A stretch of DNA of 38,110 nt, from IMG/VR virus record IMGVR_UViG_3300033571_005621, positions 1 to 38,110 of that record. One strand, written 5' to 3'. The position numbers were made by a program, and so were the translations under genes. Source of the DNA: a virus. Of this stretch, positions 3,272-23,922 are shown in pieces. Numbering within the stretch: the first letter of the stretch is position 1; every line of letters starts with the position of its first letter. Below the pieces are notes generated by a model. The model saw nothing but the letters and a program-made list of their open reading frames with translations. It ran no database searches and was not told where the DNA came from.

Positions 3272-3280
3272 TGGTATAAT
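3272..3280 (+). promoter_or_regulatory. Extended -10 promoter of the major tail gene (TGGTATAAT)
   Basis: TGG-TATAAT lies 9 bases after the upstream stop codon. No convincing -35 box is present 17 bases upstream. About 48 bases of leader and a Shine-Dalgarno AGAGGTGA (3322-3329) separate it from the ATG at 3335. The transcript would end at the strong terminator at 4022-4060, giving a one-gene unit. Confidence 0.7.
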
Positions 3281-3334
3281 AAACTTGAGGAAACATCGCC
3301 CACTTATTCCATATAGAAAAAAGAGGTGAAAATT

Positions 3335-3997
3335 ATGGCATATACACGTGGTTCAAGTGCAGACATCATTGTTGGTGCAGCTGCTCTTTTTACATACGAA
3401 GCAGGTGTACTAACCGATGCAAACCTACCATCATACGTAGTAGACAAGTCATACCGTGACGAGCTCTCTGGTTACGTTGGTCAGGGCGAGGACAATGCAG
3501 AAAAAGCTGCAGAGTTCCGCAACGTTGGTTACACTATGAATGGTCTGGAAATTGTTTTCCAGCCAGACTTCGGTGAAGTTCAGGTAGACCAGGTTCTTGA
3601 CGTTGCTAAGCTTTACAAGCAGGGAATGCAGGTAAACCTAAACACCACATTTGCTGAGGCTACTCTTGAGAACCTTCTCTTTGCTCTCGCAGGCAAGGAT
3701 GACGATCTCACCACTGTTTCTGGAAACCCAACAATGAACCTGTCCGCAGGTGACATTGGAGAGTGTCCAGTTGAGCGTGGTCTAGTAGCAGTAGGTCCAG
3801 GTACAGGTGACTGTGCTCAGTCTGACCAGATTGAGCGTGTTTACGTAGCTTACCGTGCACTTTCTATTGAGAGTGTTACTGTAGGTGCAAAGCGTGACGA
3901 GGCAACTATGTTTGAAGTCTCTTTCCGCCTTCTTCCAAATGACAACGCATCATACGGAAAGATCGTAGACAGAACAATCCCAGCTACTCTTAGCTAA
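3335..3997 (+). CDS. Major tail tube protein
   Basis: A 220-residue protein that would polymerise into the tail tube. The sequence is a beta-rich structural protein with an N-terminus MAYTRGSSADIIVGAAALFT and a late segment SVTVGAKRDEATMFEVSFRLLP that fits the sandwich fold of siphophage tube proteins. It sits between the neck genes and the tail assembly chaperones, the standard slot. Eight of nine arginine codons are CGT or CGC, against mostly AGA/AGG in the tape measure gene, as expected for a protein made in many copies. The ATG at 3335 is preferred over an in-frame GTG at 3326, because that GTG is part of the ribosome site AGAGGTGA. Own promoter upstream and strong terminator downstream also point to high, separate expression. 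Confidence 0.8.
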   Translation: MAYTRGSSADIIVGAAALFTYEAGVLTDANLPSYVVDKSYRDELSGYVGQGEDNAEKAAEFRNVGYTMNGLEIVFQPDFGEVQVDQVLDVAKLYKQGMQVNLNTTFAEATLENLLFALAGKDDDLTTVSGNPTMNLSAGDIGECPVERGLVAVGPGTGDCAQSDQIERVYVAYRALSIESVTVGAKRDEATMFEVSFRLLPNDNASYGKIVDRTIPATLS

Positions 3998-4021: not shown

Positions 4022-4060
4022 AAGCTGCTCCAGTAAGATCTCTTGCTGGGGCAGCTTTTT
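4022..4060 (+). terminator. Strong Rho-independent terminator behind the major tail gene
   Basis: Arms at 4022-4038 and 4041-4057 pair over 17 positions (with a few G-U pairs) to give a long stem around AGCTGCYCCAG, followed by a run of six T from 4056. The T-run runs directly into the next promoter (TGGTATAAT at 4061-4069). The hairpin follows the tail tube gene by 24 bases. Confidence 0.9.
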
Positions 4061-4069
4061 TGGTATAAT
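4061..4069 (+). promoter_or_regulatory. Extended -10 promoter giving a leaderless transcript (TGGTATAAT)
   Basis: TGG-TATAAT starts where the terminator T-run ends. TATAAT (4064-4069) is followed by exactly 6 bases (CTATTA) and then ATG at 4076. A transcription start 7 bases after a -10 box would fall on the A of this ATG, so the mRNA should have no leader. No Shine-Dalgarno site is present. Confidence 0.7.
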
Positions 4070-4075
4070 CTATTA

Positions 4076-4768
4076 ATGCCAAATAAAGTCTATGAATCCT
4101 CAACAATAGTCCTTGTTGATAAAACTGAGGTATTTTTAACTCCTCTAAAGATTAAATATCTAAGAGAATTTATGCACACCTTTGAAACACTAGACTCAGC
4201 AAAAGAAGAAGACGAAACCATTGCTATTTTGTTGGATTGTGTTAGGATAGCAATGAAGCAATACTTTCCATCTATTAAGACTGTTGAAGATGTTGAGGAT
4301 AATCTAGACATTAAGACTTTATACAAGGTTTTAGAGGTTGCGGCAGGTATAAGGATAAACGAAGAATCGGCTGAGCCAGTAAAAGATCAGGCAAAGGAAA
4401 GCTCTCCAAAGTGGGCTGAGATGGATCTGGTCGCACTAGAGTCAGAGGTGTTTTTGCTGGGTATCTGGAAAGACTATGATGACCTAGAAACATCGCTATC
4501 TATGCCAGAACTAATAACTACCTTGAATGCAAAAAGAGAGCTAGACTACCGTGAAAAAAAGTTTTTGGCAGCAATGCAGGGGGTAGACCTTGATAAGCAA
4601 ACTGGAAAAGGCCAGGATAATGCGTGGGAAAAGATGAAGGCTAAAGTGTTTAGTAAAGGCAAGACATCTAATCCAAATGACATTATTGCTCTTCAGGGGC
4701 AAGCAGCACAAAAGGCTGGATTTGGTATTGGGGCAGGCCTTGGATACGAAGATTTAACCAAAAAATGA
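4076..4768 (+). CDS. Tail assembly chaperone, long form (G-T-like)
   Basis: A 230-residue protein with two parts. Residues about 6-92 are homologous to the whole next gene product (shared PLKI, LR-FM--F, CV-IAM-QY-P, LD--T-YK and A-GI). Residues about 110-195 (ALESEVFLLGIWKDYDDLET, SMPELITTLNAKRELDYREK, KFLAAMQGVDLD) resemble the T extension of siphophage chaperones. In lambda-like phages G and GT come from one gene by a -1 frameshift; here the fused form is a single continuous frame. The chaperone guides the tape measure and tail tube proteins during tail assembly. The ATG at 4076 is chosen because it lies 6 bases after a TATAAT, so translation is probably leaderless; an upstream TTG lies inside the terminator. 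The expected level is low. Confidence 0.75.
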   Translation: MPNKVYESSTIVLVDKTEVFLTPLKIKYLREFMHTFETLDSAKEEDETIAILLDCVRIAMKQYFPSIKTVEDVEDNLDIKTLYKVLEVAAGIRINEESAEPVKDQAKESSPKWAEMDLVALESEVFLLGIWKDYDDLETSLSMPELITTLNAKRELDYREKKFLAAMQGVDLDKQTGKGQDNAWEKMKAKVFSKGKTSNPNDIIALQGQAAQKAGFGIGAGLGYEDLTKK

Positions 4769-4778
4769 TAGCCCCGTG

Positions 4779-4787
4779 TGCTATAAT
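4779..4787 (+). promoter_or_regulatory. Extended -10 promoter of the short chaperone (TGCTATAAT)
   Basis: TGC-TATAAT begins 11 bases after the long-chaperone stop. It is followed by a 30-base leader with a near-perfect Shine-Dalgarno site AGGAGGA (4807-4813) and ATG 4818. No -35 box is evident. Confidence 0.65.
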
Positions 4788-4817
4788 AAAATAATCCAAA
4801 TAAACTAGGAGGAAGAA

Positions 4818-5144
4818 ATGACAGTAACCGTAAACGGAGAAAAAGTTATTAAGCTAATTAGCGGAGAAGAGATTTCTGTAAGACCACTAAAAATCTCACT
4901 ACTTCGTAGCTTTATGAAGAAATTTGCTGAAATTGCAAAGGTAGCAGATGATAATGATAAGTCAATGGACGTACTCATGGCATGTGTTCAAATTGCAATG
5001 CAGCAGTACAAGCCAGAACTTGCAGAAGATTTGGCAAAGCTAGAGGAAAGCTTGGACCTTCCAACAGTATACAAGATTGTAGAAGAGGCTTCTGGAATCA
5101 ATCTTGGAGATACTGCTTTGATGGGAGCCATTCCTACCAACTAG
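4818..5144 (+). CDS. Tail assembly chaperone, short form (G-like)
   Basis: A 108-residue protein that is a paralogue of the N-terminal half of the long chaperone upstream; the shared columns run from PLKI (near residue 26) to EEASGINLGD (near 93-98). It lacks the T-like C-terminal part. In the standard system the G form is made in great excess over the GT form, so this gene would be the abundant one: it has its own extended -10 promoter and a strong AGGAGGA site 4 bases upstream, whereas the long form has no visible ribosome site. No slippery heptamer leads into the tape measure gene, so no frameshift product is expected. It sits directly before the tape measure gene, the usual place. Confidence 0.75.
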   Translation: MTVTVNGEKVIKLISGEEISVRPLKISLLRSFMKKFAEIAKVADDNDKSMDVLMACVQIAMQQYKPELAEDLAKLEESLDLPTVYKIVEEASGINLGDTALMGAIPTN

Positions 5145-5166
5145 CCTATAGGAGTAAAAATAGGTA

Positions 5167-8100
5167 ATGGCTGATATAGAATCCAATATTAGATTTGGAG
5201 TAGACACTTCCGATGCTATCGCATCGATTAAGTTGCTCCAGGCACAAGTATCAGCCTTTCAAAAGCAGATGGCCTCGTCATCAGCTGCTAATGCAGAGTC
5301 TGCACGAAAGCTGAGGCGGGGCCTTGTTGATGATCTTAATGCAACAGGCCAATGGTCTGCATCAATCAGAACAATAAAGAGTTCATCTGATTCTTTTACA
5401 AATTCTCTAGAAAAAAACAAACTCTCCATGGGAGAGTACTTTAGGTATGCTGGCTCTCAGACTACAGCATTTAGAAATCTTTTTACAACAGAATTTAACA
5501 CAATTGAGAAAGTAGCAAGAGAGCGTGTTAAAGATTTACAGACTCAATACATAGGTCTTGGCCGTGATGCCAACGGCGCACTAAAATCAATTGCTGTAAG
5601 ACCTCTGAGACTAGACATGGAAAGTCTTGCAACTCAGACGGCAATGAATGCTCAAAGGCAGCAGATTTTTAACCAGTTGCTTAGACAGGGATCTACAAAT
5701 CTTCTAAACTTTGGTAAGAATACACAGTGGGCTGGTCGTCAGCTTATGGTCGGTTTTACGATTCCTCTTTCAATTTTTGGAACGATGGCTGGCAAAACCT
5801 TTATGCAGCTTGAAGAGCAGGCAATTAGGTTTAAGCGTGTTTATGGTGAACTCTTTACTCCGCCAGAAGAAGCCGATCAGATGCTCGAAACTCTTAAAGA
5901 GCTTGGTAAAGAGTTTACAAAGTATGGCGTTGCAGTAGAGAAAACTTTAGGTCTGGCAGCTGACGCTGCGGCAATGGGTAAAACTGGAACCGAGCTTTTA
6001 GATCAGGTAACAGAAGCAAACAGACTAGCAGTTCTTGGTAACGTAGAGCAGCAGCAGGCATTAGAAACTACCATCTCTATTACAAACGCCTTTGGAGTTG
6101 CAACAGAAGACCTTGCAAAAAAGATTGACTTCCTTAACGCAGTAGAAAACCAGACAGTTGTCAGCATTGAGGATATGACTATTGCTGTTCCAAAAGCTGG
6201 TCCAGTTGTTCAGCAGCTTGGTGGAGACGTAGAAGATCTTGCATTCTTCCTTACTGCTATGAAGGAAGGTGGAATTAATGCGTCTGAAGGAGCTAACGCC
6301 CTAAAGTCTGGTCTAGCCTCCTTGATTAACCCAACTGGTGCAGCAGCCAACATGCTGAAAGTTTTTGGAATTAATGTTCAGGAAATTGTTGACAGCTCCC
6401 GTGGTGATGTTCGAAAGCTAGTTGTTGACTTCGCCTCTGCGCTAGATACGCTAGATCCATCTCAAAGAGCTCAGGCTATTGAACAGCTATTTGGTAAGTT
6501 CCAGTTTTCACGTCTATCAACTTTGTTCCAAAACGTAATTCAAGAAGGAACTCAGGCTTCTCGTGTACTAGAGCTTGCAAATGCAACAACTCAAGAGCTT
6601 GCTCAACTATCTGAAAAAGAATTAAAGCGTGTAGAAGAGTCTACAACTTTTAGGTTTAGAAAAGCAATTGAAGAATTCCAGTTGGCAATTGCGCCAGTAG
6701 GAGAAGAGTTTTTAAAGCTAATTACTCCGATTATTGAGTTTGCAACTAAGATTATTGAAAAATTTAATTCTCTTAGCGATGGCGCAAAAGGATTTATAAC
6801 TGGACTAACCGTTCTGCTTGGAGCCGTTGGCCCTGTTGCAATTATGACATTCGGTCTTTTGGCTAACGGTGTTGCAAATATTATTAAGGGATTTACTTTT
6901 GTTAGAGAGCTTTTCTTAAGAACTGGAAAACAGTCAACAATCTTGGGAGAGCAGCTAGACTACATGACTGTTGAACAGCTTCAAGCAGCAGCGGTAGCAG
7001 CTTCTCTTGACCAGGTTCATCAAAAGTTAATTCAGACATTTAGCTCTGAGGCTGCTGCAGTGCAGAATTTGGGAAATGTTTACAAGCAGGCTTTTAACGA
7101 GCAGCAAAGGTTTGACACTGGAAGAAATATTGCACGAGCTGCAGGTCTAAGACTTAATTCTGGAATTGTTTCTGTTCCAGGTCCAAAGGGAGCAGGCGAT
7201 GTTGTTCCAGCAATGCTCTCTCCTGGCGAGGCAGTTATTCCAGCTGATGCAGCAAAGAAGTATGCTCCATTCATCCAGGGGATGATTGCTGGAAATATTC
7301 CAGGATTCGCCAAGGGAGTATTCCTAGGCATGCCAAAATCTGGCAAGGGGACTGGAAAAGACAGGGAAGCTGCTGATCAAATTTATTCAATGTTCCAAAA
7401 TAGCAGTTATGCAAATACTCCTCCAAGAAACTATGGACATCAGCTTGCAAAGACTACTGGGCACAGCTTCCCTATTTTTGGTTTGGGTGGAGTCTACATG
7501 TCTCCAGAAGGAAAGAAGGTTTTCGTAAAGCCAGTTCTTGATGAAAGGTCTGCAGTTGCAGAAATCAGGGCAACACAAATTGCTCGTCAGGCTCACGGAC
7601 TAAAAGCGCCTGAGCAAAAGATTGTTGTTATGCAAGATCCTACAGATCCAAAGAGACAAAGAAGATTCCTGGCCCTGGAGTCAGCGCTAGATTCCACTTT
7701 CGTAAACAACGATCCAATGGGAATATTTAATGAGGACCAGTACTTTAAGCAACTCGTTGCATCTTTGGTTCGAGTAGACAAAGACCTTTCAGCTTCTAAC
7801 GTATACAGAGATGTTGTAGCAGACGTCGGCCCAGCTGGAGTATTTTCTAGGGCATCTGGTGTAAGAGATTATGCAGACAGCTTGCCATCAATGGAACAGC
7901 AGGCAATGATTAACTTGCTTGGAATTAAGGGCGGGGCCAAGAAGGCATTTGCAGAATCTACAGTAGCTCTAATGGCAGGATTGACCCCACAGCAATATCA
8001 CCAAAGGATGATTTCTGAGATTCAACAAGTTCTGCCATTACTAAGGCAAACAGTGGCAGGCTTTAAGTTAACAGATCCAAGAGAAGTAAAAGTTTATTCT

Positions 8101-11100
8101 GACATGATTGGAAGGCTTGAGCAGGGGCTAACAGTAGACTGGTCTAAGTTCCATGCCATCCATTCTAATGTAAAGCCAACTAAGCCAAAGCAGACCATTC
8201 CTGGATATGCGGATGGAGTTGTTAGTGTTCCAGGGCCAAAGGGTGCGGGAGACATTGTGCCAGCAATGCTTTCTCCAGGCGAAGCCGTTATTCCAGCAGA
8301 CAAGTCAAAGAGATATGCTGGACTAATTCAGGCAATTATGGCTGACAAGATTCCAGGTTTTGAAAATGGACCAGGATTAATTCCAAAGGCCACTGAGCAA
8401 ATCAATAGCGTCATATCAAAGCTAACAGTTTCTGATAGATCCTTTGCTGCGCTTTCTAGAGTCCTAGATAATTACCAAGAGGTTCTTACAACAGTTGCTG
8501 AAAGAATGCTGGCTAGTGGTCAAAAGATAAGCCAGGCATCTATTAGAAGAAATGAAGATATTTTACGTGTTGCAAAAATGGCGGCAACGACATCTGCTGG
8601 CGGAGCAGCAGGAGGCGGTTCTGCATCATCTATTAGTGGAGTAAACCTGGCTCACGGAGCGCCAATGGTAAAGCTATCCCAAGAAATTGCAAGAGCCATC
8701 GGTCAAGAGCTAATTGCGGCAGGTATCACAAATAGAGTTTCAAACAGGCTAGCAGGCGCAGAGTCAGATGTAAATGCCTATGGAAACTTGGTCTTCCCAA
8801 TGCCTAGGTCGTTTAATGCTGGCGACATGACTGGAGCAGAGGCCTCTAGCTTTGTTAGGCAAGATCCTAGCATGTTTACAAGTGTTATTGCTGACATGTA
8901 TCAAATTGATAGAAATGATCCTAACTTAATGCAGTTTGCAGAAACCGTTGCAAGTGGGCTTGAGTCTGCGGGATCCCGTGCAATAGTCGACTCAGAGTTT
9001 TATGAAATTGTTGCCAACGGAATCGAGCAAATGGCAACTTCGGCTGCAAGAGATGCAATGATTGATGCTAGAAATACTCTTGCAACTATCGCAGATGACG
9101 ACAGAAGAGAGCCATTCTATTATGGAAGAGGAATGTCTGCAACTACCGAGCCATTTGTTCCAGGTGCAACATCTGTAGCCGCAACATCTGCAACATTACA
9201 AACTGGCAAGAGATCTTATGTAGAATTTAGAAAAGGTGCAGCTGGTCAGGAGTTAATGTCGCAGGCAAACCTAGTCGCAGATCAGTTTGTAGTAGAGCTT
9301 GTTAAGTCTCTTTCAAAGAGAATTAGCTCTGGAGAAATATCTGAAGAAGCCGCAGACTCTGTTTTCAGGGCAGTTATGACTGGTTTGGACGCAAACTCTC
9401 CATCTGGAGAATACAAAAAGATATCTGAGTCTGTATCTCAGGGCGTAAAGGCTGGGGCTGATGACGCCAAGCTTGCTGGTCAATTAATCGGAGAAACCGT
9501 TGCCGATTCTGCAGCAAGCACTACTAGAAGAGGGCCAAGAAGAGCGTCTACTAATCCAGAAACAGTTGCATGGCTAGCACAGCAACAGAGCCAGGCAGCA
9601 GCAATAGACACAGCCACTAATAAGAGAGCGCCAAGAAGAGTAACCGTCCCTGGAACGAAAGAGCTAAGAGAGGCTGAGCAGGCACAGCAAAGACAAACAC
9701 AGGCTACGCAAAATATGACAAGGGCTACCGAAGAAGGCTCAGATAATCTTATGAAGATGAATTCCGTTATTATGAATGGAACATTTGCAATTAGCTCTCT
9801 TTCTGGAGTCCTATCTCTATTTGGAGGTCAGTTTGCAGAACTTAACCAGCAAATATTTGGACTAAGCACTGCTCTTTTTGCTCTTATGCAAATAACACAA
9901 GTTTTAACACAGGCAAAAATTGCAGAACTACTTCAAACAAGACTGGGGGCTGCATTTATTGCGGTAAGAGCAGCTAGGGCATTCGGAACTGGTGCCATAG
10001 CAGCCAAGGGCCTTGCTGGAGGACTTAGCAGAGCTGTTTTGTGGCTTGGAAAATTCCTTGGTCCAGTTGGAGTTGCAACAACTGTCATTGGTGGCTTAGT
10101 TGCTGTTCTCCTGGCTGTAAACGAAGCAGAAGAAAAGAAAAAGAAAGCTCTTGTAGGACTTACAAAGACTACTAATTTGGCAGAAGAACAGCTACAAATG
10201 TTAGCTGATGAGTTTAGCGTTTCAAGAAAAAAGATTGATTTTGCTACTGCAGCAACTCCTTCTGAACAGGATAGCGTAGGAATTACACCACAAGACCTAG
10301 CTCAAAATCAAGAATTCTTAAATAAGTTTGACACACAGCTTGCTGGAATTAGAAGTGCAGCAGCAGAGTCTGTAAGTGTTGCACTAGAGGGATTGGCACT
10401 ACAGCTAGAGGGAGAGGGATTTGCTCCAGAGGCAATAAAGACTATTACTGAGGCACTTGTGGAAGCAGCAGGAAGAACAGATGTTAAGCTTGACTTCTTT
10501 AAGATTACTGCAACTGGAGAGATTGAGCTGGATGTAGATGTAAGAAAGTCTGCAGAACTTCTTATTGAAAATTATCGATCAGCGTTCCAGCAAAGCCAGC
10601 AAAGCTCTGGAGCTCTTGGAGAACAGCTTGGAAATACCACTGGTCAAGGTTTCTGGCCAACCTTCTGGTCAGCTTTTGGAACTGCCCAGGTAGGCGGAGG
10701 GCAGGCAATCAACTTAAGTGCTGCACTTGATATTGATAGAGAAACTGGAAAACTAAGGGCTAGAACAGAAGAGCTAAACTCCATAGCTAAGATTAAGCTA
10801 GAAGAACTTTCTGCATACTTTGTGTCAGCATTTACCAATATTAGATCAGAACTGCTTTCTGGATCGATGAGCATTGAGGATTACCATCTACAACTTTCTA
10901 CTCTTTTTAGCAGCCTAGCATCTTTGGGAGATGAAGCAATTATTCCTCTTATCCCTCAGCTAGCAGAGTCAATGGATATTAAAGAAGAAGTAGATGCTTT
11001 TGTGTCTGACTATGACAAGGTTTTAAAAATTAAGTCTGCGGTAGCAAACGTTCCTATATCTGATGACGACATCAAGGTACTAAATAAGGGTGGAAAAGAA

Positions 11101-13398
11101 GCTGAAGTAGTCAGAAAGAGAATTAATAAGCAAATTCTAGATTCTGCCAACAATCTAAAAAAGGTGGTCGCTGAGCAAAAAGAATCAGCCGTAATAGATG
11201 AAAATATTGGTACTGCCAATGCCCAACTAAATGATAGGGTTATTGCGCTACAAAACCAGTCAGCAGCCTACAAGATCTTGACCGATCTTGGATATGACGC
11301 TGCTACAGCTTTTGATTTAGCTGGAGACTCTGGTCTTGCTGCAGGTATTAAGGCTGCTTATGGTGCAGGCGTTGCATCTACTGAGTGGAAAGACATGAAG
11401 GCTTTGATCGACCAGGTGATAAGCCTGGAAAAGGCTGCTCCAAAGTCAATTGGTACTGGGCAAAAGAGTAAGTATGATCAAACCATAGAATCTCTAAAAG
11501 AGCAAAGAGATGAAATTAAGAATAACTCTATAGCTGTTTCTAGATTGACTAAGAATGGCTTTGACTTAGCAACAGCAATGAGAGCAGCAGAAGACCCTAT
11601 TACGGCAGCCGCTATTGCGACTACCAAAGTCGGCACCCAAAAATGGGAAAGATTAATTAAAGCAATTCAGACCACACAAGCTCTATTGTCTAAAAAAGAA
11701 ATTCAAGAACTTCTTCGTGGTGGCAAGATTGAGAAAGCCGATAAACAGGCACAGGTAACTGTGTCAACAGCCCTTAGTCGACTAGGATGGACTGCAGAGC
11801 AAATAGACAAAACTCTTTCAGACCAAGAATTTACCAATACTCTTGCAAAAGATTTAGGTGACGGAGTTATAGACTCTCAGCAATTACTAAACAGACTTAC
11901 TCAGATAAAGGAGCTTGAGAGTCTAGATATCCAGCTTAACATGACGACAAAAGAAGGAGCTGCCGAAGAGTTCCAAAAGAAGTATGACAAGGTTGTTGGA
12001 TATCTTGAGGCACAAAAGCAAACCATCGAGGTAGACTTCCAGATAAGAACTCTTTCTGATAACAGAATCATTCGTGAAGCCGAAGCTACCATTGCAGCAC
12101 TTCAGTTTAAGATTGATGATTTTGAGGCAGAGCTAACTGGCATAGAGGATCAAGAAACAAAAATTAATGAAACCTACGATTCAAGGAAGAAGGCTCTTGA
12201 TCAAATCTCTAAGGCGAATGAGCAAATTCAAAGACAGCAAAAGGCCCAGCTATCTGTTGCCGATGCCCTTAGCCAAGGAGATATTGCAGCTGCAGCTAGA
12301 GCAGCCCAAGAGTTACGAGCACAAAAGACTCAGGAAGGTTTGCAAAAGCAGGGAGAGTTCCTGGACAGATCGAGAGAGATGTCTCTTGATAAGATTAGAT
12401 CTGCAAATGGAAGAACTCGAAAGCAAATTGAAAAAGAAATTAAAGACCTCAAGGACCAGGTTTTTGCTGTTGAGGAAAAGACTCTGGAGCCAGCAAGAGA
12501 ACGAATTCGGCTTGCCACATTGGAAAAGGAAAGAAGCCAGGATTCCCTAAACTCTCAAATTCTAAATTGGGAAAAGTTAGCCGCAAGGGTTAATGAGGCA
12601 AAGCTAAAGCTAACCCCAGAAGAAATGGCTGCAATGGAATACCAGGCGGGATTGATAGCAGATCTTCTAGAAAACTGGAATAAGATTGAAGATAAAACTG
12701 CTACTCTTACAATTATTAAAAAGACTTTGGGTGAAGAGGATTCTACAGAAACCACTACAAAGAATGACGGCAAGAAAGATGGTACTGGTAAAAATGATGA
12801 CGGGACCACTCCAAAAGCAGTTGTAACTCCAATGCCAGTTGCCCAGGCTGCAGAAGTGTTAAACGCAAAGACGGCATTAAATAATGCAAAGGCTGGCGCT
12901 GATGCGGCAAAGGCAAGTGCAACTCTCGCTAAGGCAGCTGGGGTTGACATTAAAAAGACTACTGCCGACACAGCAGAAAGAAAGATTGTAAATGCAGTAG
13001 CGTCTGCATCGAAGGCTGTTGCTGGAAGAACTGCTGATTCAATTGAAAGGGCTGTAAATGCGGCCAAGCCCCAGACACAAGTAATTAATCCAAGGCTAAT
13101 GAAGTCCTCTGGCGGAATGATTAAGAAGTATGCTGCTGGAGGCTTTGCTATGGGAACAGATATTATCCCAGCTATGCTAACTCCTGGAGAGTTTGTGGTT
13201 AGAAGGCATGCTGTCCAGAATTTTGGAGTAGATAGGCTAAAGGCCATAAATAGTGGAAAATATGGCGGCGATTCAGTGTATAATTATTCGGTAAGCGTAA
13301 ACGTAAAGTCGGACGCAAATCCAGACCAGATTGCAAAGGCAGTAATGACCCAGATTAGACAGATTGATTCTCAAAGAATTAGGAGCACCAAACTATAA
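5167..13398 (+). CDS. Tape measure protein with inserted kinase-like segment
   Basis: At 2743 residues this is the largest gene and would set tail length; at about 0.15 nm per residue the tail could reach roughly 400 nm. Seen in order: N-terminal coiled-coil part; conserved tape-measure core (about 190-500, including QLEEQAIRFKRVYGELF and GDVEDLAFFLTAMKEGGINA); hydrophobic segments near 541-575 and 1615-1650 that could enter membrane; two PGPKGAGD-PAMLSPGEAVIP motifs (669-718, 1020-1069); a kinase-like segment between them (about 765-1000); a further globular part near 1159-1300; Gln/Glu-rich coiled coils (2300-2500); and a C-terminal GTDIIPAMLTPGEFVV motif near 2663. Lytic transglycosylase or peptidase motifs were not recognised. 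The ATG follows TAGGAG (5149-5154) by about 12 bases. The next gene starts in its stop (TAATG). Confidence 0.9.
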   Translation: MADIESNIRFGVDTSDAIASIKLLQAQVSAFQKQMASSSAANAESARKLRRGLVDDLNATGQWSASIRTIKSSSDSFTNSLEKNKLSMGEYFRYAGSQTTAFRNLFTTEFNTIEKVARERVKDLQTQYIGLGRDANGALKSIAVRPLRLDMESLATQTAMNAQRQQIFNQLLRQGSTNLLNFGKNTQWAGRQLMVGFTIPLSIFGTMAGKTFMQLEEQAIRFKRVYGELFTPPEEADQMLETLKELGKEFTKYGVAVEKTLGLAADAAAMGKTGTELLDQVTEANRLAVLGNVEQQQALETTISITNAFGVATEDLAKKIDFLNAVENQTVVSIEDMTIAVPKAGPVVQQLGGDVEDLAFFLTAMKEGGINASEGANALKSGLASLINPTGAAANMLKVFGINVQEIVDSSRGDVRKLVVDFASALDTLDPSQRAQAIEQLFGKFQFSRLSTLFQNVIQEGTQASRVLELANATTQELAQLSEKELKRVEESTTFRFRKAIEEFQLAIAPVGEEFLKLITPIIEFATKIIEKFNSLSDGAKGFITGLTVLLGAVGPVAIMTFGLLANGVANIIKGFTFVRELFLRTGKQSTILGEQLDYMTVEQLQAAAVAASLDQVHQKLIQTFSSEAAAVQNLGNVYKQAFNEQQRFDTGRNIARAAGLRLNSGIVSVPGPKGAGDVVPAMLSPGEAVIPADAAKKYAPFIQGMIAGNIPGFAKGVFLGMPKSGKGTGKDREAADQIYSMFQNSSYANTPPRNYGHQLAKTTGHSFPIFGLGGVYMSPEGKKVFVKPVLDERSAVAEIRATQIARQAHGLKAPEQKIVVMQDPTDPKRQRRFLALESALDSTFVNNDPMGIFNEDQYFKQLVASLVRVDKDLSASNVYRDVVADVGPAGVFSRASGVRDYADSLPSMEQQAMINLLGIKGGAKKAFAESTVALMAGLTPQQYHQRMISEIQQVLPLLRQTVAGFKLTDPREVKVYSDMIGRLEQGLTVDWSKFHAIHSNVKPTKPKQTIPGYADGVVSVPGPKGAGDIVPAMLSPGEAVIPADKSKRYAGLIQAIMADKIPGFENGPGLIPKATEQINSVISKLTVSDRSFAALSRVLDNYQEVLTTVAERMLASGQKISQASIRRNEDILRVAKMAATTSAGGAAGGGSASSISGVNLAHGAPMVKLSQEIARAIGQELIAAGITNRVSNRLAGAESDVNAYGNLVFPMPRSFNAGDMTGAEASSFVRQDPSMFTSVIADMYQIDRNDPNLMQFAETVASGLESAGSRAIVDSEFYEIVANGIEQMATSAARDAMIDARNTLATIADDDRREPFYYGRGMSATTEPFVPGATSVAATSATLQTGKRSYVEFRKGAAGQELMSQANLVADQFVVELVKSLSKRISSGEISEEAADSVFRAVMTGLDANSPSGEYKKISESVSQGVKAGADDAKLAGQLIGETVADSAASTTRRGPRRASTNPETVAWLAQQQSQAAAIDTATNKRAPRRVTVPGTKELREAEQAQQRQTQATQNMTRATEEGSDNLMKMNSVIMNGTFAISSLSGVLSLFGGQFAELNQQIFGLSTALFALMQITQVLTQAKIAELLQTRLGAAFIAVRAARAFGTGAIAAKGLAGGLSRAVLWLGKFLGPVGVATTVIGGLVAVLLAVNEAEEKKKKALVGLTKTTNLAEEQLQMLADEFSVSRKKIDFATAATPSEQDSVGITPQDLAQNQEFLNKFDTQLAGIRSAAAESVSVALEGLALQLEGEGFAPEAIKTITEALVEAAGRTDVKLDFFKITATGEIELDVDVRKSAELLIENYRSAFQQSQQSSGALGEQLGNTTGQGFWPTFWSAFGTAQVGGGQAINLSAALDIDRETGKLRARTEELNSIAKIKLEELSAYFVSAFTNIRSELLSGSMSIEDYHLQLSTLFSSLASLGDEAIIPLIPQLAESMDIKEEVDAFVSDYDKVLKIKSAVANVPISDDDIKVLNKGGKEAEVVRKRINKQILDSANNLKKVVAEQKESAVIDENIGTANAQLNDRVIALQNQSAAYKILTDLGYDAATAFDLAGDSGLAAGIKAAYGAGVASTEWKDMKALIDQVISLEKAAPKSIGTGQKSKYDQTIESLKEQRDEIKNNSIAVSRLTKNGFDLATAMRAAEDPITAAAIATTKVGTQKWERLIKAIQTTQALLSKKEIQELLRGGKIEKADKQAQVTVSTALSRLGWTAEQIDKTLSDQEFTNTLAKDLGDGVIDSQQLLNRLTQIKELESLDIQLNMTTKEGAAEEFQKKYDKVVGYLEAQKQTIEVDFQIRTLSDNRIIREAEATIAALQFKIDDFEAELTGIEDQETKINETYDSRKKALDQISKANEQIQRQQKAQLSVADALSQGDIAAAARAAQELRAQKTQEGLQKQGEFLDRSREMSLDKIRSANGRTRKQIEKEIKDLKDQVFAVEEKTLEPARERIRLATLEKERSQDSLNSQILNWEKLAARVNEAKLKLTPEEMAAMEYQAGLIADLLENWNKIEDKTATLTIIKKTLGEEDSTETTTKNDGKKDGTGKNDDGTTPKAVVTPMPVAQAAEVLNAKTALNNAKAGADAAKASATLAKAAGVDIKKTTADTAERKIVNAVASASKAVAGRTADSIERAVNAAKPQTQVINPRLMKSSGGMIKKYAAGGFAMGTDIIPAMLTPGEFVVRRHAVQNFGVDRLKAINSGKYGGDSVYNYSVSVNVKSDANPDQIAKAVMTQIRQIDSQRIRSTKL
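7171..7320 (+). repeat. Tape measure PAMLSPGE motif, copy 1 (residues 669-718)
   Basis: Encodes SVPGPKGAGD, then VPAMLSPGEAVIPAD, ending in a helix with IPGFAKG. The same unit recurs at 8224-8373 with clear similarity in both protein and DNA. Such motifs with PAML(S/T)PGE are common near the ends of tape measure proteins. Confidence 0.85.
7459..8166 (+). other. Kinase-like segment inside the tape measure gene (about residues 765-1000)
   Basis: The protein here carries the residue pattern of small protein/small-molecule kinases: a Gly-rich turn (FGLGGVYMSPEG), then FVK with K788, a helix Glu E799 (VAEIRA), a linker-like ALESALD, and a catalytic-type loop D873-x4-N878 (DLSASN) followed after 7 residues by D886-V-G888 (ADVGPAG). 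The Asp-to-Asn spacing equals that of D-x-x-x-x-N in kinases, and the order K, E, D, N, D is right. No His-Arg-Asp motif is present. The segment is flanked by the two PAMLSPGE copies, as though a cassette had been inserted. This call is by eye and needs a profile or structure test. Confidence 0.45.
8224..8373 (+). repeat. Tape measure PAMLSPGE motif, copy 2 (residues 1020-1069)
   Basis: Second copy of the SVPGPKGAGD / PAMLSPGEAVIPAD unit with the same following helix and a shared IPGF. It differs from copy 1 mainly at synonymous sites and in the helix, so the duplication is old. Together the copies bracket the kinase-like segment. Confidence 0.85.
13111..13269 (+). repeat. C-terminal diverged PAMLTPGE motif of the tape measure (residues 2649-2701)
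   Basis: Encodes GGMIKKYAAGGFAMGTDIIP followed by AMLTPGEFVVRRHAVQNFG. It is a distant third copy of the motif and lies close to the C-terminus, its common place in tape measure proteins. It supports the overall assignment. Confidence 0.8.
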
Positions 13399-23595: not shown

Positions 23596-23922
23596 ATGGA
23601 AACTATGCACCACAAGCCAATCAAGAAGTTTGGCATTAATGGGCTAATTAATGATGACTCGTCTATCATTAGGCTTAGGTCTGAGTACAGGAGGCTGCTT
23701 GACTCTGAAATGAGGATTGCAGGGTATGTCCCAAGGCTTGACTTAAGTGAGGACTTTACGATAGAATTTAATCAGAAAAAAGAATACTTTGAATTTACAT
23801 TATCAATATATGCAGTTTACGTTGGAAAGAAAAAGAGCGAATGGATACTAGGAATAGACGAAACACGAGTGATATCTATGACGAAGAGCAAATCAGACGT
23901 GTTCTTACGGGAAGTGGCGTAG
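23596..23922 (+). CDS. Leaderless small protein of unknown function
   Basis: A 108-residue protein with a region SEYRRLLDSEMRIAGYVPRL and a beta part (FTIEFNQKKEYFEFTLSIYA, then a VYVGKKKSEWILGID strand). The pattern of a helix, then a G-Y-V-P turn and two strands, is seen in small phage proteins, but I recognise no function. The ATG lies 6 bases after TATAAT with no ribosome site, so expression is probably leaderless. The 3' end overlaps the primase reading frame by 82 bases. Its location inside the replication block suggests a link to replication or nucleotide metabolism, not more. Confidence 0.55.
   Translation: METMHHKPIKKFGINGLINDDSSIIRLRSEYRRLLDSEMRIAGYVPRLDLSEDFTIEFNQKKEYFEFTLSIYAVYVGKKKSEWILGIDETRVISMTKSKSDVFLREVA

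Follow-up and report, generated by a model that had tools for sequence, protein, structure and literature searches.

The window analysed here, a stretch of 38,110 nucleotides of viral DNA, holds two genes with a common N-terminal domain between the genes for the major tail protein and the tape measure protein, the position of tail assembly chaperone (TAC) genes; the parts of this locus given below lie on the plus strand. The major tail protein gene (3326 to 3997; phrog_2175, E=5.8e-31) belongs to an Ig-domain family and lies where the major tail protein is annotated in Stanwilliamsviridae. The tape measure gene (5167 to 13398; phrog_10030, E=6.7e-99; PhageMin_Tail, E=9.4e-28) encodes 2743 residues behind a Shine-Dalgarno (SD) sequence, AGGAG, at 5150-5154. 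Between them, the long gene (4076 to 4768) encodes a putative long chaperone of 230 residues (GT, or TAC-NC), assigned by its open reading frame, its homology and the architecture of its relatives, and the short gene (4818 to 5144) encodes a putative short chaperone of 108 residues (G, or TAC-N), assigned by its open reading frame, its BLASTP match to the long gene and its homologues. The long gene carries a G domain (4076 to 4369; phrog_10504, E=2.7e-20), paralogous to the short gene, and a T domain (4412 to 4768; phrog_10474, E=3e-15) that begins at about residue 113 of the protein. G is joined to T in one continuous frame, without a programmed frameshift. A TTG at 4043 is a formal alternative start of this frame; relatives align from the ATG at 4076. 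As read from the sequence, the two products have G in common and the longer one also carries T.

The long gene lies right behind a predicted intrinsic terminator, a hairpin followed by a T run (4022 to 4057; MFE -27.5 kcal/mol, z -8.6). A predicted extended -10 element, TGGTATAAT, occupies 4061 to 4069 and the ATG follows six bases later with no SD, a leaderless-type start. The same element, TGGTATAAT, is found upstream of the major tail protein gene (3272 to 3280). The short gene has a predicted extended -10 element of its own, TGCTATAAT (4779 to 4787), a leader of about 25 nt and the SD sequence AGGAGGA (4807 to 4813). No terminator is predicted between the long and short genes, and the tape measure gene is probably co-transcribed with the short gene. 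The preliminary description had given the long gene no ribosome site, a terminator just upstream and a leaderless message, and the short gene its own promoter and AGGAGGA site; these features are found again, the leaderless start and both promoters as predictions.

By BLASTP, residues 10-98 of the short protein align with residues 10-96 of the long one at 38% identity (E=2e-18), a shared G domain of about 90 residues. The motifs on which paralogy had been proposed (PLKI, LR-FM, CV-IAM-QY, LD--T-YK and A-GI) are all present at matching spacing, and the coordinates and lengths first given for a continuous G-T fusion of 230 residues and a separate G-only paralogue of 108 residues are correct. Are these proteins tail assembly chaperones? 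Neither gives a Pfam match above the cut-off, and the PHROG families that they match, 10504 for G and 10474 for T, have no assigned function. A tblastn search recovers 121 to 132 phage records with the same proteins, nearly all of them Streptomyces phages of the Stanwilliamsviridae together with a few Rhodococcus phages, and the homologous genes at the TAC position in these records are often annotated as tail assembly chaperones. The chaperone identity proposed earlier is upheld by homology to annotated TACs of Streptomyces and Rhodococcus phages, both proteins having matches among phage TACs. For the long protein, fold matches of the predicted model among viral proteins include several TACs. 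The PDB fold search with this model gave no match at E <0.001, candidates from a PDB profile search were dismissed as chance matches (E 0.4-0.9), and the HK97 TAC gp13 (2ob9) reached Z 4.1 against the model, tied with unrelated chains. From homology we infer a chaperone function for both proteins. By the same measure the locus is a TAC locus, and its reading frames place it outside the TAC pairs made by frameshift.

In most long-tailed phages, a -1 ribosome slip on one gene is the usual route to the long chaperone. The isolates recovered by tblastn follow this design: each record has one place only for G, and in the records that were opened a single G gene is followed by T in the -1 frame. Gilson, Emma1919, Bmoc, Jay2Jay, Trina and Francesca share the gene order, with one G, T in the -1 frame and an annotated TAC; in Emma1919, Sham and Francesca the TAC is annotated as a joined product. 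In some other records (L083, L086, L087, L090, L091 and similar ones) the annotation gives T as a gene of its own or as hypothetical although it overlaps G in the -1 frame, and these are probably records in which the frameshift was left unannotated.

To place the locus among its relatives, about 300 loci were gathered by searches with G, with T, with an alignment of T and with the T of a frameshifting phage, and were sorted by HMM profile classification; the counts include overlapping records. In 264 loci a fused G-T gene is followed downstream by a second G. In 26 loci G and T are split in -1 frames and no second G was found, one of these loci ending at the end of its contig. The remaining loci are incomplete at contig ends or, in one case (L062), broken; the broken long gene of this single record was set aside as a probable assembly error. 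Among the roughly 300 loci, no fused locus with its downstream region present is without a second G, no split locus has one, and no locus mixes both designs. The fused loci comprise 173 distinct sequences, and dereplication at 90% identity of T leaves 104 fused and 18 split loci. With 173 distinct loci of this layout, the arrangement in the window is not due to chance. The strict exclusivity of the two designs suggests that the two genes together stand in for G and GT. The long gene's T domain can be aligned with the T reading frames that Streptomyces and Rhodococcus phages have in the -1 frame, and 13 columns are invariant across the T domains of all three groups.

The split loci have a recognizable slippery site at the start of the G/T overlap: CCCAAAT or CCCAAAC, CCCGGAA in the Boydwoodruffvirinae, and GGGAAAA in the Rhodococcus phages. 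Such a site is seen in nearly all of the 26 split relatives; the automatic scan accepted X_XXY_YYZ repeats only, CCCGGAA was identified by reading the sequence itself, and no site was assigned in Daubenski (L096), where the overlap opens further upstream. It could be argued that the long gene of the fused loci still makes both products, by a hidden frameshift or an early stop, and that the short copy is superfluous or serves another use. Sixteen of the 165 fused long genes do carry an in-frame slippery heptamer at one position near the junction, but the 30 heptamers found there in all are scattered and mostly runs of A, a heptamer stands near the end of only 8 of 166 short genes, and among these long and short genes there is no conserved slippery site. 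Synonymous-site constraint is likewise absent, the profile being flat across both genes including the junction, so that no hidden overlapping signal is seen. On the unconserved slippery sites and the flat profile, a hidden frameshift in the long gene was rejected. Furthermore, the short gene is present in every fused locus long enough to show it and is the most constrained part of the pair: dN/dS is 0.056 for the short G, 0.072 for T and 0.086 for the G part of the long gene, which evolves faster. By these ratios both genes are under purifying selection. That the long gene alone supplies both products is therefore highly improbable.

In the G tree, the short G (28 rows; support 99/98), the long G (28 rows; 84/54) and the split G (13 rows; 100/99) each occupy one side of a branch, and long and short G together are separated from split G at 100/99; the support for monophyly of the long G is modest. 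This topology fits a single duplication ancestral to the fused clade, after which the copies would have evolved separately, without conversion between them. In the T tree the fused and split lineages need two changes, one also being possible, and L097 and L296 are the split loci that lie closest to the fused clade. The preliminary description had proposed that the pair arose by gene duplication instead of frameshift, and the exclusivity across about 300 loci, a G tree that fits one duplication and the loss of the slippery site all speak for it. As judged from these comparisons, it is well supported that two genes took over from the frameshift.

The two copies of G could also serve different partners, such as different regions of a very long tape measure or different steps of assembly, their ratio not being the point. 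Long and short G fall into clades of their own, no conversion between them is seen, and the long G is the faster-evolving of the two. Tape measures, too, are of 2387-3144 residues in 13 fused records, and of 2743 here, versus about 1770-2380 residues in the split ones. This difference between the clades goes back, however, to no more than one or two events, and in Gordonia phages whose tape measure genes are close to 10 kb long, TAC genes likewise precede the tape measure (PMC4982279). Nor does a division of labour sit easily with the strict exclusivity toward the frameshift arrangement, which suggests joint replacement of G and GT. We consider different partners unlikely as the main reason for the pair. 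In all fused records examined, the tape measure is longer than in all split ones (L307-L320). Longer tape measures were weighed as the driver of the switch and, since the lengths separate clades but reflect one or two events, were left as a lead.

The opposite start types predicted in the window are kept across nearly the whole clade. Among the 173 distinct loci, a -10 element (at least 5 of 6 bases) lies 4-9 nt before the ATG, without an SD, in 96.5% of long and 0% of short genes, compared with 3.1% of 775 other ATG reading frames, mechanically defined controls whose start sites are less certain. An SD is present before 0% of long genes, 98.8% of short genes and 49% of the other reading frames, and an upstream hairpin with an MFE below -12 kcal/mol before 99.4%, 2.3% and 20%, respectively. 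The short gene has a TG-extended -10 in 171 of 173 relatives and an SD-like motif in 171 of 173. In the split relatives, a terminator, an extended -10, a leader and an SD precede the single G, the SD motif being absent in two Rhodococcus phages. Since these signals are of the same type, the short gene keeps the ancestral type of start and the long gene has a new one. Elsewhere in the window, the genes at 23596 and 30823 have TATAAT 6-7 nt before the ATG and no SD, and leaderless-type starts may be used at further genes of this phage. At 195-203, TGTTATAAT overlaps the TTG taken as the start of the reading frame 203-700, behind a terminator-like hairpin (154-182); the true start of this frame probably lies further downstream. 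In the Rhodococcus phage Francesca (L092, 1974-2001), the annotated GTG start of the TAC falls inside a terminator-like hairpin and the ATG at 2001 looks better.

Taken together, we consider it likely that a frameshifting ancestor underwent duplication of G and that GT and G now come from two genes with separate start signals. The ancestor would have made G and GT from one gene by a -1 ribosomal frameshift. Upon duplication in the ancestor of the clade, the upstream copy would have been joined in frame to T, yielding GT directly, and the downstream copy would have come to make G only, the slippery site being lost from both. The terminator would shield GT from the tail protein message, and GT would start a message of its own, presumably leaderless, that would run on through G and the tape measure gene, no terminator being predicted before G. 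The second promoter would add a message for G and the tape measure, so that G would be on both messages. The amounts, with G expected to be plentiful and GT scarce, would then be set by the separate start signals, leaderless-type on the one hand and extended -10, leader and SD on the other. In lambda there are about 30 G for each GT; G covers the tape measure, and GT brings in the tail tube protein (PMC5009743). The preliminary description had suggested, as a conjecture, that promoter and ribosome-site strength could set a large excess of G. An excess of G over GT set by promoters is what we would expect here as well: given that G lies on both messages, the G message should exceed the GT message whatever the strengths of the two promoters. 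Leaderless reporters are comparable to SD reporters in M. tuberculosis, higher in M. smegmatis and ten times lower in E. coli (PMC8485053), and another study gives a mixed picture (PMC7148126); between the two studies, leaderless reporters in mycobacteria span the range from less to more active than those with an SD. A leaderless start is thus no dependable sign of weak translation in Actinobacteria, and G may be in excess more through the number and strength of promoters than through the ribosome site.

The -10 elements could instead serve to time late expression, in which case protein stability after translation would be the main determinant of the ratio. Extended -10 elements do stand at other genes, 10 being found in the window versus 3 expected, and so are not unique to the pair. 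A shared timing signal, however, would not need the opposite start types that are kept in nearly all 173 relatives, and we regard timing as quite unlikely to explain the signals. Returning to two genes with separate start signals, we tentatively propose, with somewhat less than even confidence, that the clade exchanged an ancient frameshift for transcriptional control of the ratio, through a leaderless GT message and an internal promoter with a strong ribosome site for G, which would leave the ratio freely tunable, perhaps for longer tails.

The members of this large clade come from metagenomes. Of 15 related viral records, 11 have genes for WhiB, and the host of this long-tailed phage is for this reason probably actinobacterial. 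A scan of a genome collection found one relative, L097 (CAINGU010000031.1), and no host could be named from proviruses. L097 is binned as a cyanobacterium, its tail genes are actinophage-like and the WhiB match of the assembly lies on contig 31; the contig is probably from an actinophage and misbinned. The G/GT frameshift is among the most conserved recoding events of phages. The fused clade and its sisters (L097, L296 and the Stanwilliamsviridae) offer a natural before-and-after of its replacement, covering duplication and fusion, the disappearance of the slippery site and the fixation of opposite starts. The clade thereby makes it testable whether the G:GT ratio alone matters or whether the origin of both proteins from a single message matters as well.

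The principle of a TAC made by two genes is already known. Some T4-like phages are reported to have a short TAC gene together with a fused long one in place of a frameshift (Vladimirov, Gautam and Davidson 2022, as described in PMC10885494), and the locus studied here likewise has a short-form gene and a fused long-form gene in the absence of a frameshift. Compared with that description, the present relatives are actinophages of the siphophage type, the two genes are adjacent and have paired start signals, and frameshifting sisters are known. Some Microbacterium phages of cluster EA have no evident frameshift (PMC7302621); compared by description, that report, unlike the present case, describes no G paralogue inside a fused gene. 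The likeness to lambda gpG/gpGT lies in the gene position before the tape measure, the N-terminal G of both products and a T in the long one only, but in lambda GT arises by -1 frameshifting within a single gene (about 30:1, PMC5009743), whereas here there are two genes and no conserved slippery site. In the trees, the nearest kin found for G and T are frameshifting actinophages. The Stanwilliamsviridae (Gilson, Comrade, Jay2Jay, Bmoc, Karimac, Coruscant) share homologous G and T at roughly 27-45% identity, the gene order, and the terminator, extended -10 and SD before G, but their G gene is single, and T follows CCCAAAT or CCCGGAA in the -1 frame. Within the open-access literature searched, a siphophage-like clade with a two-gene TAC, its mutual exclusivity with frameshifting sisters and its pair of opposite start signals appear to be new.
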